Source: a virus. Taken from it: a stretch of DNA of 25,112 nucleotides. The notes beneath the pieces are model-generated. The model did no database searches, was not told where the DNA came from, and saw only the letters and a list, made by a program, of their open reading frames with translations. Location of the stretch: positions 1 to 25,112 of IMG/VR virus record IMGVR_UViG_3300034073_003445; one strand, 5' to 3'. The translations under genes were made by a program, and so were the position numbers. Of the stretch, positions 1 through 19,924 are shown one piece after another (position 1 is the first letter of the stretch; each line of letters opens with the position of its first letter).

Positions 1-3000
1 GGCGGCATGTCCACTGCACTGATAGCAGGCGGAATGAAAGCGGGTACCGCGATAGCTCCTTTTACGGGGCCTTTTGCTCCGTTTATGCCCGTGGCAGGGA
101 CATTAGCAGGGCTTGGGGCGTCGTTGTATGGTCGAAGCCTTTTGGAAGAAGACTTCGAGGCTAGACGCCCAAAAGAGGCGGAGTTGCAGCCCATATACTC
201 AGGCGTTCGCACAGCGACTGAGAGTGCTTTAAGTGCCCCTTTAGCGTTTGTGTTTCCCGCCGCATCTGCTCAATCGGGTCGCTTTGGGCAGTTAATCGGG
301 CAGTTGGGTAATTTTGCTCGAACCAACCCTCACACTTACTTGGCGCGTGAAGCACTTATCAGCGCCTATGCAGGTATCTATGGAGGAACAGCGGTTGCGA
401 CCCTCCCTCCAGATCAGTTCCCCGTTGGGGGCCCCTTAGCGCAATTTTTGGCAGAGAGTGCTGCCGGTGTATTGAGTCCCGGCAAGTTTATCTTTGATGG
501 ATTCATGGTTGGGCAGTCCGGCCTTGACCTAAAAACCGAGCGTAAGGTTGCGGAGCTCCTTCAGCGCGTTGTTGCAACGGAAAGCGAAGGCGGCAGGGGC
601 ATAAGAACCGCAAATCAAATTGCAGACGAGCTTACCGCCGCTATTGCAGATTTGCCTATTGATCCAAAGACAGGCCGCCCTGTCCGTTTAACGCCTGCCC
701 AATTAATCGACTATCGCCCGTTAACGGCGTTTGAAAGGTTGTTGGCACAGAGAAATGCGCAATTTTCTGGCGAAACAAAAGAGATGGGCGAGCGAGGGCT
801 TCAGATCTATGCTGGTGTCCTTCAGGCCCTGACGGAAAGCGGTAACCCTGACCTTGTTCTCAAGGCGGTAAAAGCACGCGAAATCCATCTGCAAAATCTG
901 TTTCAAATGGCCTTTGACCAAGCGGCCTTTGTCGCTGCGGACAAAGCACAAAGGCTCGGTCGAGGCGGATCCAGGCTTAATGAAGAAATTGCGAATGACC
1001 TAACGACCGATTTGGAAAAGGTCGTACGGGCCGCTCAAGATACAATGCATGCGTTGTATAAGGAGAGAACCCTTGCTGCTTTCCGCTTAAACAAGGCAGG
1101 AACTCGGTATGTTCCAAATAGGGTCAAGGCCAGTAACTTGGCAGAAACCTATTTAGATCTCACCGCCGGGCTCGACCCCGTCTCAAAAGGCCAGCGAAGA
1201 GGCCTTGTCACGGACATGCGTGGGCTTGGTTTTAAGGACCTTCGCGAGCTTGGAACTTCTTATAGGAAAAACGCACGTACTCCCGAATACGTAGAGTATT
1301 TCAACAACAACAAGACAGGCCCTAACCCCGCAATGGCGGGCTTAGAGGTTCCTAACTTGCAAGCGGATCGCCTTGCTAAAGCGGCGGGCGAGTTTAGGGA
1401 AAAGGCTCGCCTCGCTGCTAGTCAGAATGACGCTAACAGTGCGCGTGTCTATCACTTACTGGCAAACGCCGCCATTCGTGACCTAGAAACGTTGGATGAC
1501 CCTATCTTTTCGGAAGCAAGAAGCTTCTCAAAAGTTTTCCACGACGTTTTCACGCGGACCTTTGCTGGCAAGTTTGACGATGTAGATGGGTCAGGAAGAC
1601 TGATCATTCCTGCTGAGACGCTTGTCCGTCGTACCGTTTCGGGCGGAGCGGATGCGGCTTACATGAGGATGCGTGAAATCTCGGATGCGGCACGGTTTTC
1701 TGAAAAGCTAGTCGCAGACTCCACGGCGCAAGACGTGGTGCAGGCCGTTTATGCGCAGGAGGCACGCGATATTTTTAATTCGCTGCGCAGAACAAAAGCG
1801 ATCGACCTCAACAATCCTGCTCAGGTTAGCCGAGCCGTTTTCTCTGTCGCCGAACGAAAGGCAGGAGCTTCCGCGGTTCCTTTGGCTGAATTCATTAAGC
1901 GCACGGGAGGGATCGCAGATGTAGGGGGAGAACTTGCAGCGCAAGACATCACCAACCGCACGTTGCGGGGCCTCGTGCGGCCCGTTGAAAACGTCGGTGG
2001 GCGGTTAATCGTTCCCCCTGAAGCCGGCATGGATGCTGTTCGTCAACGTGTATTTGATGCGGGATACTTCCCTCAAAAGCAGGACTACAACGAGATAACC
2101 GATAGCGAAATCGTTGATGCGCTGCGTCAAGACCTTTTCGTCAACAGGGTCTGGACCGGGGTGGTTCGCGATCGTCTTTCGCCTTTTATCGGCAATATTG
2201 AGTCGATTAACGAGCTGGCGGCGAAAGGCATCACTCGAGACATGTCTATCGAGGACATCACTTCTCAACTACTTCGGGTGGATGAGCAGGCGCGTGCCCA
2301 GGGGTTGCCGACCCTCGTTCCTGAATCAGCACTAGACGATTTTTCAAAAAAGCGCAGGCCCGGAACCCTCGATCCGAGTGAAATCATTAACTCCGTGCTG
2401 GGGTCACAGCAGCGGTTGATGCGTAGCTTGGCTTCGGAAACAACGGAGCTGAAAGACGGGCGGCGGCTTATTAACCTGAAGAAGTTTGATACCTTCAGGG
2501 AACGTAATCGTGATTTGATTGAAGAGCTTGGGCTGGCGGAAGAGTTTTCCAATATTTCTCGTGCTCAACAGGCGCTTGAAGAGGTTATGGATCCGGCCAG
2601 CAAAGCCAACTACACGCTGCGTAACCAGAAGATTTTTGCGGATTTAATAGGCGCAGACGGGAAGAACGAAGATCCGTTTGGTCCCGTGTACGATGCATTA
2701 AGTAGCAATCGACCGGTTGGGGCTATTAAGGATCTCCTGTTCGAGATCAACAGCTCTACCACGGCTACCGCGGCAGAAAAGCTGCAAGCCAGAGAAGGGC
2801 TACAGTCCATTTTAATGAGCTACGCTTTCGCTAAGGCTAAAGGGTTTGACACCAGGACCCTTCCCGATGGCGAAGTCGTTTCTTTGTTTGACCCCCAAGC
2901 ATATCGGCAGGCGTTGTATAGTCCCTTAAAGGGGGCAGGTCAGAGAACGTTTCCGACTTTGATGTCACTAATGGTCCAAGAAGGGCTGGTGACAGCAGAG

Positions 3001-3735
3001 CAAGCCGCAAACATGAAGAAGCTTTTAGATGCTTCTCTTCAGATCGAAAAAAGGCTCAGGTCTGGGGTGGTGTCGGGCGCTGAAAACTTGCCCACGTCTA
3101 ATATGAGTACTCTTGAGGAGCTTGCAATTACACAGCTCTCCGCTCGATTTGCAGGAATGATTAGCCCCGGAGGCCCGGGTTCTCTGAGCTTTGCGTCCCG
3201 CGTTATTAAAAACGCAGAACGTATCTTTAAGAGAATGCCGTCTCAGCAGCAGATGACTATGCTCCTCGAGGTTGCCAAAGACCCGGAGCTGACGGCACAA
3301 CTGTTGCGAAAGGACTTGAGCAATGACGAGAAGCGCAATCTCGGAAGGATTGTCTTCGGCTTGCTGTTTTCCCCGACAGTAGCCCCCGGCGCTGTTCAGC
3401 GTTACGTGCAAGCTCCCACTGAGGAGGAGCGAGAAGCAGAACGGCAAGAACTGCTACAACGACGTCGGGAGGCCAGGGGCGGGACCGCAAGTGAACAGCT
3501 TCAAACCTTGGACGACGTCTACAATCGACTGCGCGGGAGACCCTCTCCCCCCGCTCCGGCGACCCGTGGCATGCCGGGCATGCCGTCCGGGGCACCTCCT
3601 GCGGGCGGGCCTCCAGCCGGAGGCGGCGCTCCACCGACCACGCAAAGCCGGATGATGCTCCAGCAGCTCTTCCCGTTTGATCCGATTACGGGGGCGGCTG
3701 CGGTTCAGGCGGGGATGCCGCCGATGGCGGGTTAA
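1..3735 (+). CDS. Large phage virion-type protein, 5' end probably outside the window
   Basis: The frame is open from the first base. The first ATG is at 7 and gives 1242 residues, but no ribosome site can be judged, so the gene probably starts upstream. The visible N-terminus is rich in Gly, Ala and Pro and hydrophobic (about residues 5-45). A long, mostly helical charged body follows, without a motif I recognise. The last 100 residues are low complexity: a charged helix (EEEREAERQELLQRRREAR), then a Pro/Gly/Ala tail with repeated GMPG and PPAGG, ending near MLQQLFPFDP. Size, composition and position at the end of a rightward block fit a structural or internal (ejected) virion protein; this is inference. 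No transglycosylase or peptidase motif was seen. Its last 50 bases overlap the convergent nuclease gene. Confidence 0.75.
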   Translation, partial: GGMSTALIAGGMKAGTAIAPFTGPFAPFMPVAGTLAGLGASLYGRSLLEEDFEARRPKEAELQPIYSGVRTATESALSAPLAFVFPAASAQSGRFGQLIGQLGNFARTNPHTYLAREALISAYAGIYGGTAVATLPPDQFPVGGPLAQFLAESAAGVLSPGKFIFDGFMVGQSGLDLKTERKVAELLQRVVATESEGGRGIRTANQIADELTAAIADLPIDPKTGRPVRLTPAQLIDYRPLTAFERLLAQRNAQFSGETKEMGERGLQIYAGVLQALTESGNPDLVLKAVKAREIHLQNLFQMAFDQAAFVAADKAQRLGRGGSRLNEEIANDLTTDLEKVVRAAQDTMHALYKERTLAAFRLNKAGTRYVPNRVKASNLAETYLDLTAGLDPVSKGQRRGLVTDMRGLGFKDLRELGTSYRKNARTPEYVEYFNNNKTGPNPAMAGLEVPNLQADRLAKAAGEFREKARLAASQNDANSARVYHLLANAAIRDLETLDDPIFSEARSFSKVFHDVFTRTFAGKFDDVDGSGRLIIPAETLVRRTVSGGADAAYMRMREISDAARFSEKLVADSTAQDVVQAVYAQEARDIFNSLRRTKAIDLNNPAQVSRAVFSVAERKAGASAVPLAEFIKRTGGIADVGGELAAQDITNRTLRGLVRPVENVGGRLIVPPEAGMDAVRQRVFDAGYFPQKQDYNEITDSEIVDALRQDLFVNRVWTGVVRDRLSPFIGNIESINELAAKGITRDMSIEDITSQLLRVDEQARAQGLPTLVPESALDDFSKKRRPGTLDPSEIINSVLGSQQRLMRSLASETTELKDGRRLINLKKFDTFRERNRDLIEELGLAEEFSNISRAQQALEEVMDPASKANYTLRNQKIFADLIGADGKNEDPFGPVYDALSSNRPVGAIKDLLFEINSSTTATAAEKLQAREGLQSILMSYAFAKAKGFDTRTLPDGEVVSLFDPQAYRQALYSPLKGAGQRTFPTLMSLMVQEGLVTAEQAANMKKLLDASLQIEKRLRSGVVSGAENLPTSNMSTLEELAITQLSARFAGMISPGGPGSLSFASRVIKNAERIFKRMPSQQQMTMLLEVAKDPELTAQLLRKDLSNDEKRNLGRIVFGLLFSPTVAPGAVQRYVQAPTEEEREAERQELLQRRREARGGTASEQLQTLDDVYNRLRGRPSPPAPATRGMPGMPSGAPPAGGPPAGGGAPPTTQSRMMLQQLFPFDPITGAAAVQAGMPPMAG

Positions 3736-13430: not shown

Positions 13431-13865
13431 ATGAGTTCACCCAAACCACAAGCTTCCAAAAAGCCTTTGCCAAAGGGCTTGAAGTGGATGAATCTTAACT
13501 ACGACGACTTCAACAAGCGTTTCCCGCGGCTCGGGGTCCAGCGCTTAACCAAGCGCGTCGAGGAAGGCGATGAGTCTGCGCGCGAGCGCCTTCAAGAGCT
13601 GAAGGCGTACACATGGCGCAATCGACGGAAGCGAAAGTACCGGTACCCAGGCCGCTACTCGCCTTCCAAGCGAACGCGGGTAAGTTTCAAGACGATCTCC
13701 ATCCATATGGAGACGTACCACAAGATCAAAGAGCTTCAGAAGTTCTACAAGGCGGGGATGGGCGCCATTATCACGCCTTTGATCGATGAGCTGTTTGAAA
13801 AGACCTACAAAGAAGCGGAGCTTCTAGCGCGAATCAATGCACGGGAGACACGCGATGAAGCATGA
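13431..13865 (+). CDS. Basic protein with C-terminal ribbon-helix-helix-like domain
   Basis: 144 residues. Residues 60-90 are strongly basic (TWRNRRKRKYRYPGRYSPSK). Residues 86-125 have the strand-helix-helix pattern of a ribbon-helix-helix DNA-binding domain (FKTISIHMETYHKIKELQKF then AGMGAIITPLIDELFEK). The N-terminus contains a short helical segment. A DNA-binding regulator or genome-organising protein is likely; the target is unknown. It is first in a new operon with its own promoter and a strong AAGAAAGGAGA site. Its last 11 bases overlap the next gene. Confidence 0.75.
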   Translation: MSSPKPQASKKPLPKGLKWMNLNYDDFNKRFPRLGVQRLTKRVEEGDESARERLQELKAYTWRNRRKRKYRYPGRYSPSKRTRVSFKTISIHMETYHKIKELQKFYKAGMGAIITPLIDELFEKTYKEAELLARINARETRDEA

Positions 13866-14575: not shown

Positions 14576-14751
14576 AGGACCTCTACGAACGGATCACGGA
14601 GCTTGAAGCAGAAGTGGAGTACATGCAGCAGGTGATCCTCGCCTACCGAGATCGGGAGAAGGACGGGATTGCTGTGGAGATTGCCTTACTGCTAGTGGGG
14701 CTTTTGGTTGGAGTGGCACTTGGCTATTACGCGGCACGGGGGTTTTTATGA
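14572..14751 (+). CDS. Small coiled-coil plus single-span membrane protein
   Basis: 59 residues from a TTG start preceded by GGAGGGAGGG seven bases upstream. Residues 1-30 form a charged coiled-coil helix (KDLYERITELEAEVEYMQQ). Residues 34-57 are one membrane span (AVEIALLLVGLLVGVALGYY). No signal peptide is seen; N-terminus inside is likely given the charged helix. It could be an inner-membrane accessory or a spanin/holin-like or exclusion protein, but nothing decides this. The stop overlaps the next ATG. Confidence 0.6.
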   Translation: MKDLYERITELEAEVEYMQQVILAYRDREKDGIAVEIALLLVGLLVGVALGYYAARGFL

Positions 14752-18208: not shown

Positions 18209-18237
18209 CCCCGCCTCGAGAGAGGCGGGGTTTTTTT
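18209..18237 (+). terminator. Strong rho-independent terminator
   Basis: Perfect 9-bp stem CCCCGCCTC / GAGGCGGGG with GAGA tetraloop and seven T. It ends the rightward operon; the stop codon of the leftward gene 18236-18544 lies in the T-tract. Confidence 0.9.
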
Positions 18238-18544
18238 ACCGCCCTGGGCCCTCGCGGCGGTGAGTTTCTTCTAGGTTGTCGATTCGGATGTCGTCGTAGT
18301 CGAGATTGACACGGCGGAGACGGTTCTCGGGCCACCAGCCAAGGACCAAGAACCAGACGATCTTGGCGGCGGACAGGGACTGGCCGTTAACGCGTACGCG
18401 AAGCTCTTTGTGGGGGCCGACGAAGGACCCTGCGAGTTCGCCTTTCTTGCGGCCGATCTTCCAGATGAGGGCGCCGACGGCGGTGTCGTGGTATTCCAGC
18501 GAGGCGCGGATGGTTTCTAGGGTGTTATCATCAGGTCTGCTCAT
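18236..18544 (-). CDS. Degenerate HNH-type endonuclease-like protein
   Basis: 102 residues, the only leftward gene in the right two thirds. The framework is that of the HNH_3-type phage endonucleases: LEYHDTAVGALIWK, then ELRVRVNGQSLSAAKIVWFL and LGWWPENRLRRVNLDYDD with IRIDNLEE. But the usual His of the LAH helix is Ala (SAAKIVW) and the DHINGD catalytic segment reads RVNLDYDD, so the nuclease is probably inactive or has become a DNA-binding protein. The ATG at 18544 has GGAG nine bases upstream; longer frames start in DNA without a site. Confidence 0.65.
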   Translation of the reverse strand: MSRPDDNTLETIRASLEYHDTAVGALIWKIGRKKGELAGSFVGPHKELRVRVNGQSLSAAKIVWFLVLGWWPENRLRRVNLDYDDIRIDNLEETHRREGPGR

Positions 18545-18678
18545 GCGGTTGTGCTCCATACAACGGCTGGGAAGTGAAGCCCGAGTGTTTGCAGCACTTG
18601 GGCTTTGCGCATTATGGGGGAGGGGGAGGCGGAAAGGCAAGTTTGTTGTAGAAAGGAGACAAGAGAGGGGGTTTTGTT

Positions 18679-18759
18679 GTGTGGATGAGACAGAAAGGGC
18701 CGCGGATCACGGGTCAAGGGCATTACAGGGGGTTTCTTATAGCCTCTCAGCCACTTTAG
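18679..18759 (+). CDS. Possible very small peptide
   Basis: 26 residues from GTG: MWMRQKGPRITGQGHYRGFL then IASQPL. GAGAGGGGG is seven bases upstream and a second site, TAGAAAGGAGA, is at about 18650. The only support is these sites; it may be noise. Confidence 0.25.
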   Translation: MWMRQKGPRITGQGHYRGFLIASQPL

Positions 18760-18770
18760 ACACGTTCAAA
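18759..18770 (+). repeat. Inverted repeat, left arm
   Basis: GACACGTTCAAA; exact reverse complement at 18907-18918, 136 bases away, enclosing both 14-base direct repeats. Confidence 0.75.
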
Positions 18771-18793
18771 AGCAACAAATAGTAGTAGTGCAA

Positions 18794-18807
18794 TGTAATG
18801 GTGTAAT
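18794..18807 (+). repeat. Iteron-like direct repeat 1
   Basis: TGTAATGGTGTAAT, itself two TGTAAT hexamers with 8-base period; exact copy at 18858, 64 bases on. Confidence 0.8.
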
Positions 18808-18857
18808 AACCTAATAGAAACAATGAGTTAAGTATGGTTACAGTATGTTTTTAGAAG

Positions 18858-18871
18858 TGTAATGGTGTAAT
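18858..18871 (+). repeat. Iteron-like direct repeat 2
   Basis: Exact copy of TGTAATGGTGTAAT. A degenerate relative, TGCAATGGCGT, follows at 18882. Confidence 0.8.
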
Positions 18872-18906
18872 TTCTCTGGGATGCAATGGCGTCTCAAATT
18901 GCTACG

Positions 18907-18918
18907 TTTGAACGTGTC
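18907..18918 (-). repeat. Inverted repeat, right arm
   Basis: TTTGAACGTGTC, exact reverse complement of the arm at 18759-18770. Confidence 0.75.
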
Positions 18919-18995
18919 CAATGTCTAGAAATAGCTATATAAAATCGCCTCAAATAGGCTGGACGCCCTGAAGTTGCCTCCGTTACACTAGTTAC

Positions 18996-19211
18996 ATGTT
19001 GATAGTTGACTCTGGAATCCCGATTCCGACGGAAACCCAGCGGGAGAAATACCCCTTCCCTGTCATGCAGATCGGGGACAGCTTTTTGCTACCGGACGTG
19101 GAGTCCGCCAAGAACGCCCGCAGCGCCGCGTGGATGTACTCCAAGCGCCATGGGACCAAATTCTCTTGTCGACGCGTCGAGAATGGCTGGCGGGTCTGGA
19201 GAGTGGCATGA
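18996..19211 (+). CDS. Small conserved phage protein (KYPF/GDSF type)
   Basis: 71 residues. The pattern IPIPTETQREKYPFPVMQIG then DSFLLP and a C-terminal KFSCRRVENGWRVWRV belongs to a small protein found repeatedly in phages and prophages near replication or packaging genes; function unknown. There is no Shine-Dalgarno: the ATG directly follows a TGTAAY-type repeat pair in reverse orientation (18982-18996), and TACACT at 18984 could act as a -10 for a leaderless transcript. The stop overlaps the next ATG. Confidence 0.7.
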   Translation: MLIVDSGIPIPTETQREKYPFPVMQIGDSFLLPDVESAKNARSAAWMYSKRHGTKFSCRRVENGWRVWRVA

Positions 19212-19924
19212 AGATGCGCAGCAAGGCCGACAGGGAGTTCAGCAGCAAGATAGGTAGGGGCATACAGCCTAAGACCCTAGAGAAGCTCTCACGGCCTGTG
19301 AAGCCGCATAAACGCAAGGAGCTTACGACGCAGGAGTGGAAGTTCGTTAACGAGTTCGTGGCAGGAGACGGTCACGTGACGTTGCAGGAGGCCGTGATCC
19401 GTGCAGGGTGGAACGTCAAGAGCGCTAAGAAGAAAGCCGAGGAGCTGACCGACCCTGATAAGAACCCGCACATTGTCGCGGCCATCCAGAAGGCGCGAGC
19501 CGAGATGGCAGAGAAGTACGGGACGACGTACGAGCGACACATGCGCGACCTACAGGTGATTCGCGATCAGGCACTGGCGGCAGGAGCCTATGGCGCTGCG
19601 GTACAGGCCGAGTATCGCCGTGGGCAGGCCCTTGGGACGATCTACATTGATCGCAAGGAGATCAGGCACGGCACGATCGATTCCATGAGCAAGGAAGAGG
19701 TCATGCGCAAGCTCGAGGAAATCAAGAAGCTCTACGGCGGCGGTCCGATCATCGACGTCACGCCAGAGCAAGTGCGCGACAGCGTCGAAGAGCCTCTTGT
19801 CATCGAGCATGAGGACGCAGACGTTGAGGAAGCCGAGGAAACAGTAGATGCCAGCGAAACCCGAGACGAGCCTGTACCAGAGGCTGAAAGAAAACCTCCC
19901 AAACTGCCTTATTACCCGAATTGA
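19208..19924 (+). CDS. terS: Probable terminase small subunit
   Basis: 238 residues. After a basic arm (to 39), TTQEWKFVNEFVAGDG and TLQEAVIRAGWNVKSAKKKA (58-77) form the helix-turn-helix typical of small terminases, followed by PHIVAAIQKARAEMAEKYG (87-105) and a helical oligomerisation region (108-175). The C-terminal 55 residues are acidic and Pro-rich, as in tails that contact the large subunit. The role would be recognition of the packaging site. The ATG at 19208 overlaps the previous stop and follows GGAGAG. No large terminase follows; a nuclease gene starts inside its 3' end. Alternative: another HTH-type oligomeric phage protein. Confidence 0.72.
   Translation: MKMRSKADREFSSKIGRGIQPKTLEKLSRPVKPHKRKELTTQEWKFVNEFVAGDGHVTLQEAVIRAGWNVKSAKKKAEELTDPDKNPHIVAAIQKARAEMAEKYGTTYERHMRDLQVIRDQALAAGAYGAAVQAEYRRGQALGTIYIDRKEIRHGTIDSMSKEEVMRKLEEIKKLYGGGPIIDVTPEQVRDSVEEPLVIEHEDADVEEAEETVDASETRDEPVPEAERKPPKLPYYPN

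Follow-up and report, generated by a model that had tools for sequence, protein, structure and literature searches.

A conserved repeat element next to terS, a probable packaging-initiation site in uncultured phages related to DSL-LC04

What function does a dense cluster of short repeats perform in the AT-rich gap beside the small terminase gene of an uncultured phage? The whole stretch of DNA considered here (25,112 nt; hereafter the window) shows complete identity, across 10,792 nt of comparison, to part of a 59,211-nt IMG/VR phage contig (G001). Among named phages, DSL-LC04 (OR003939; 61.5 kb) was the closest that we found; it is described as metagenome-assembled from Dishui Lake, with a predicted Pseudomonas host and a proposed family 'Dishuiviridae' (PMC10611076); the main text of that paper contains none of the terms 'packaging', 'intergenic' and 'origin of replication'. 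The gap (18545–18995) has on its left a divergent ORF encoding an HNH endonuclease-like protein (18236–18544, minus strand; phrog_99, E 3.9e-13). On its right lies a 71-aa ORF (18996–19211, plus strand; phrog_10287 of unknown function, E 1.5e-7), overlapping the start of terS (19208–19924, plus strand), which encodes the 238-aa small terminase subunit, the proposed binder of the repeats. Searches of the window for RNA elements gave neither an Rfam match at gathering score nor a tRNA. A 1,242-aa ORF at 7–3735 has no PHROG match; a similarly placed ORF in DSL-LC04 carries the annotation DNA transfer protein.

The first-pass annotation had reported eight TGTAAY hexamers within 275 nt, and all eight are present where it placed them, representing 8 of the 15 copies in the window. 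This clustering is beyond chance: shuffles of the 275 nt contain 0.48 copies on average and at most 4 in 5,000 rounds, and no 275-nt window outside 18500–19200 holds more than one. We also recovered the two exact TGTAATGGTGTAAT copies (at 18794 and 18858), the framing inverted repeat formed by GACACGTTCAAA (18759–18770) and its reverse complement (18907–18918) at a spacing of 136 nt, and the G+C content of 30% and 37% in the two lines called AT-rich. The inverted repeat proved longer than described, with a gapped match of about 49 against 52 nt (18727–18775 and 18899–18950), its ungapped part being 26 nt. An IHF-like site and the concerted change of the inverted arms had both been overlooked.

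A GGATCACGG box (18704–18712, plus strand), matched by GGAYCRNGG in relatives, lies to the left of the element. The element itself comprises the left inverted arm (18727–18775, plus strand); tandem R boxes TGTAATGGTGTAAT with a spacing of 8 nt (18794–18807, plus strand), matched by a tandem GTAA pair in relatives; an IHF-like site AAACAATGAGTTA (18818–18830, plus strand); an inverted R box (18837–18842, minus strand), matched by TTAC at a fixed offset; a second TGTAATGGTGTAAT pair (18858–18871, plus strand), whose GTAA counterpart in relatives is mostly a single box; a conserved CTGGGATGC-type segment recognized by alignment to the right of the boxes (18876–18884, plus strand); and the right arm (18899–18950, plus strand), which matches the left one in inverted orientation. 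The IHF consensus used in our scans is WATCAANNNNTTR, to which the site in the window has one mismatch; a longer, different consensus is printed in PMC11447400. Next to the ATG of the 71-aa ORF, and abutting it, a weak promoter-like segment TGGACG-18-TACACT (18960–18989, plus strand) was picked out by eye from the sequence and alignment; a sigma-70 consensus scan, which left this segment unscored in the window, gave nothing on the terS side of the gap. In some relatives, the 71-aa ORF has a promoter-like segment TTGGCA-17-TAGACT that ends 6–7 nt ahead of its ATG, a placement that would yield a nearly leaderless transcript.

Relatives were selected by the TerS protein alone, as the best 80 of 376 loci; 72 of them have at least 560 nt upstream, 54 are distinct and 36, including the window's phage, differ mutually by more than 10%. 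The tandem GTAA pair is present in all 36 of these elements (1.1 in shuffles). By the relaxed consensus, 31 of 36 have an IHF-like site starting no more than 25 nt to the right of this pair, and by the strict one 20 of 36 do; the relaxed combination of pair and IHF site never arose in 200 shuffle rounds. In 35 of the 36, GGAYCRNGG precedes the first R box by 78–128 nt (shuffle mean 0.67), and 27 have at least two copies left of the element. The narrower GGAYCACGG was rejected as an element-specific box, with eight copies across each of G001 and DSL-LC04; in the window, it is found at 14591, 16551 and 18704 (plus strand) and at 19400 (minus strand). Among 70 distinct elements gathered by the relaxed IHF requirement, TTAC occurs at a single shared offset in 43, GTAA at a single shared later offset in 45 (mostly as one box) and GCGCG after the CTGGGATGC-type segment in 62; in the window, GCGCG does not follow that segment. 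The usual order is three or two boxes on the plus strand, the IHF site, a box on the minus strand and a box on the plus strand.

Conservation of the originally reported hexamers is partial. Many relatives have boxes corresponding to those at 18794, 18802, 18837 and 18866, as a rule with GTAA in place of the full TGTAAY, and the one at 18858 has an exact counterpart in a few (L049, L053 and L054). The hexamer at 18722 has none among the relatives aligned, and those at 18982 and 18991 sit in the promoter-like segment directly before the ATG, outside the conserved GTAA-box element. The inverted box lies 35 nt past 18802 in the window, a distance that is 43 nt in several relatives. The cluster of repeats is a genuine DNA element, and its layout is much alike beside terS in many uncultured phages.

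With the TerS of locus L066 as the query, the box-box-IHF core was found at 67 loci and missing from 8, and with that of L145 it was found at 37 and missing from 32 (the loci counted as lacking it having at least 650 nt upstream). The 36 distinct loci without the core include 26 with a tandem GTAA pair and 10 with none (shuffling all 40 gave a mean of 1.2 and a highest value of 5), and any IHF-like match within 700 nt was seen in only 2. In a more distant sub-lineage, that of G012 (L165 and L463), boxes and matched arms are kept in the gap before terS without the IHF consensus. The frequent lack of this consensus makes a packaging function slightly less likely and a replication origin slightly more so. 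The 8,142-nt contig L064 carries, besides a core at 3490–3525 (plus strand), a different second core in inverted orientation at about 70–105 (minus strand), which may represent a chimeric assembly or a genuine second copy.

Both the anatomy of the element and its link to terS are conserved. Among the pattern matches listed on viral contigs, terS lies 177–469 nt downstream in 110 of 116 copies (distances extrapolated to TerS residue 1), and in the remaining six the contig ends within about 400 nt, before terS. The distance is just 177–193 nt in 22 of the 110 listed copies; the four short-gap elements that we read keep the array, and terS follows directly without the 71-aa ORF.

Read from 19130, the terS ORF matches phrog_51 (E 5.6e-7) and also phrog_641; its score of 22.6 with Pfam Terminase_2 is under the cut-off of 26.1. 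A structure model of low confidence (18-sequence alignment, mean pLDDT 61.9) has a helical part, residues 37–104, whose best alignments are to small terminases over 56–59 residues, with Z of 8.1–9.3, a range below the value of about 13 under which unrelated helical folds can share such scores. They include SF6 (4zc3, Z 9.3 over 57 residues at 1.3 Å; 2cmp, Z 8.9), PaP3 (6w7t, Z 8.3) and an SPP1-like protein (3zqq, Z 8.1); a Bacillus cereus phage protein (2ao9) reaches Z 8.3 as well, and a Foldseek search with the model returned nothing below E 0.001. TerS is thus predicted to possess an N-terminal helix-turn-helix DNA-binding domain of the small-terminase (Terminase_2/SF6-like) type. The DNA-binding domain of SF6 is reported to bind DNA weakly and with little sequence specificity (PMC4737164), which counts against a packaging site.

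The inverted arms were compared in 34 distinct elements with A/T runs masked, two of the 36 having been dropped for want of a core match. Own left–right pairs score 25.4 on average in inverted orientation, against 17.8 for arms re-paired among phages (sd 0.93; the highest of 2,000 re-pairings is 21.0) and 16.3 in direct orientation. Taken individually, only 15 of 34 elements have an own pair scoring above the 90th percentile obtained with foreign right arms. Across the set, the flanking arms change together between lineages. Those of DSL-LC04 match each other at 84% over 45 nt, with a sequence unlike the arms of other elements; no convincing third copy was found elsewhere in G001 or DSL-LC04.

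The likeness of the arms could be kept by selection or by template switching. By the second route, quasi-palindrome correction would hold the arms alike and the core alone would be functional; this would likewise produce arms that change together. However, the inverted arms span the range from the window's type to DSL-LC04 and, weakly, Pelagibacter phage HTVC023P, and we regard template switching as a conceivable but not a probable source of their likeness. It is compatible with a packaging site, for which symmetric arms are in any case a point against, being unnecessary for packaging in one direction.

HTVC023P, a cultured phage, has a TerS 36% identical over 58% and a TerL 57.5% identical to that of DSL-LC04. 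Its 546-nt gap before terS contains five exact copies of CTAGGAAA in 92 nt, out of seven in the whole genome (60.9 kb); in 1,000 shuffles of this gap, any 8-mer reaches at most two copies. The first two copies are spaced by 8 nt and the third lies 44 nt further, the block is framed by 27-nt inverted arms (78% complementary; shuffle fraction 0.018), and a GGACCACG box is located left of the array. HTVC023P therefore resembles the window's element in its 8-nt tandem pair, later box, inverted arms, GGACCACG box and adjacent terS, and differs from it in the sequence of the boxes, weaker arms and the presence of only half an IHF consensus, the last of which counts against a packaging site. A perfect 12-nt hairpin GGAATAGGCATT with a 6-nt loop is also found left of the CTAGGAAA array (L354:5587–5616).

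The core was sought in the terS gaps of three other phages. The gaps of 023Pt_psg01 and of Burkholderia phage DC1, whose TerS matches that of the window weakly (28.6%), contain no tandem pair, and that of HTVC027P contains one tandem pair and no IHF-like match. In the stretches of these phages scanned, the strict IHF consensus occurs once, outside the HTVC027P gap, and the CTAGGAAA-type array is absent from HTVC027P and 023Pt_psg01. Phage JC1, which like DC1 belongs to the Bcep22-like phages, is described as circularly permuted, with headful packaging suggested (PMC9144972).

Contig ends provide a further line of evidence. With terS as the anchor and duplicates removed, a left end lies within 3 kb in 99 unique contigs. 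Of these ends, 14 fall in the interval from 40 nt on the right of the first box to 130 nt on its left, where the 130–2,500 nt background predicts 4.9 (local p 6e-4, scan-wide p 0.06; set-wide medians gave the box position for contigs starting inside the core or having none). Nine contigs start in the left-arm zone versus one in the right-arm zone. A pattern-found set of 131 whole contigs among the matches listed, which overlaps the terS-anchored sample, has 11 left ends within 100 nt of the first box on either side and no right end within 200 nt of it, the first 36–94 nt being hidden by the pattern itself. A left-anchored search over just 22 loci saw no right ends at the left arm. The ends of nine near-complete contigs overlap by 116–127 nt in four cases, by 25 nt in one and not at all in four, and the element stands at various positions in those that overlap.

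This cluster of ends could stem partly from assembly breaks; a break caused by a homopolymer or hairpin would be expected at the right arm too, which is met first from terS. A one-sided cut in or near the left arm is suggested. The spread, one-sided ends, together with some circular assemblies, incline us to a pac site over a precise cos, a leaning that concerns ends of assemblies and not of virions.

Taken together, the conserved boxes and IHF-like site, the link to terS, the order resembling lambda cosB, the TerS model, the contig ends and the parallel in HTVC023P favor a packaging-initiation site of pac or cos type, with a probability that we put at roughly 0.6. Of the three functions proposed in the first-pass annotation, recognition by the terminase has fared best, given the position before terS, the cosB-like box order, the likeness of the TerS model to small terminases and the one-sided contig starts. 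We infer that TerS, encoded 0.4 kb to the right, would bind the GTAA boxes, and that host IHF, in lineages possessing its site, would introduce a bend between the inverted box and the tandem boxes on its left, allowing the boxes of both sides to face one TerS assembly. TerL would thereby be placed to cut within the left arm or next to it, and the end on the terS side would be the first to go into the capsid.

The main rival is a replication origin, in which the boxes would act as initiator iterons, IHF would bend the DNA and the AT-rich arms would serve as melting regions, one for each direction. Its general look is what speaks for it: iterons, an IHF-like site and AT-rich flanks are all present, and two mirror-image arms of T/A tracts would suit two-sided opening. 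However, GC skew has no inflection here in the 59-kb G001 or in DSL-LC04, although in both it follows gene orientation and is little informative with co-oriented genes. The array adjoins terS in every listed copy where terS is visible, and among 20 proteins scanned none adjoining the array is named as an initiator, its neighbor being terS. Moreover, 023Pt_psg01, with a primase 47% identical and helicase and polymerase A in the same order, has no box-box-IHF core within the 20 kb searched. We therefore consider an origin unlikely at this locus.

Very improbable is an operator or promoter, where a phage regulator (possibly TerS) on the boxes would control the divergent HNH gene and the terS operon: divergent genes do flank the gap, and in relatives the 71-aa ORF has a promoter-like segment directly against its ATG, but the array lies about 90–165 nt away from this segment in the window, short-gap elements keep the array though the 71-aa ORF is absent, and an IHF-like site with inverted arms exceeds the needs of an operator. 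The protein encoded at 13431, earlier named as a candidate regulator, matches no PHROG or Pfam family at E 0.01 and finds no support in an array that stands beside terS wherever terS is visible in the copies listed. TerS could nevertheless regulate its own expression alongside packaging.

If the element is a packaging site, we may speculate, very tentatively, that it works as a modular address. The layout of arm, tandem boxes, bend, inverted box, box and arm would be kept, and the arms, between groups also the boxes, would be swapped as matched sets. A joint part of this proposal, which we hold just as loosely, is that the bend would unite the mirror arms as one symmetric site setting the TerL cut. 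Phages sharing a host would then package their own concatemers only. To our knowledge, few phages have a packaging site that is understood in detail. A review describes the recognition of DNA by TerS as unclear and controversial (PMC9611059). A large set of natural elements that resemble each other in layout and differ in sequence would offer a direct route to what is read, be it boxes, bend or arms, and a sequence rule for locating where packaging begins in uncultured relatives of DSL-LC04.

At title and abstract level, we found no published description of this element, which may still have been published. In phage lambda, cosB (R3-I1-R2-R1) lies between cosN and the terS gene Nu1. Its R2 has the reverse orientation of R3 and R1, with the IHF site situated between R3 and R2 (PMC4669245). 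Compared by layout alone, the element is similar to cosB in that repeats flank an IHF site, the box after this site is inverted and the whole lies upstream of terS. Candidate TerS boxes surrounding an IHF-like site, with the middle box inverted, can thus be recognized from the sequence, except for the IHF part in the distant sub-lineage. Unlike in lambda, boxes of the element come as tandem pairs 8 nt apart, long inverted arms lie outside them, no cosN or cosQ was recognized, and the starts of contigs scatter across more than 100 nt.

In P1, the pac site spans about 160 bp, contains hexamer repeats (HEX4 and HEX3) as well as an IHF site, and is bound by PacA and PacB (PMC10028697); the element likewise combines hexamers with an IHF-like site. 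However, the hexamers of P1 are Dam sites (TGATCA/G) located within pacA, whereas those of the element are intergenic TGTAAY repeats outside terS without GATC, and a pac of the P1 type, with TGATCA Dam-site hexamers inside terS, was accordingly rejected. The SPP1/SF6 pac (pacL-pacC-pacR) is described as containing direct repeats in a region spanning promoters and the start of terS, in a paper that does not mention IHF (PMC4737164); its TerS-bound pacL and pacR are reported to have no sequence identity between them (PMC4856287), unlike the two arms here, which share sequence. Direct repeats beside terS, and a TerS model resembling the SF6 DNA-binding domain, are what the element has in common with this system. 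We do not assign the element to any of the three types; it combines features of lambda cosB, P1 pac and SPP1 pac.
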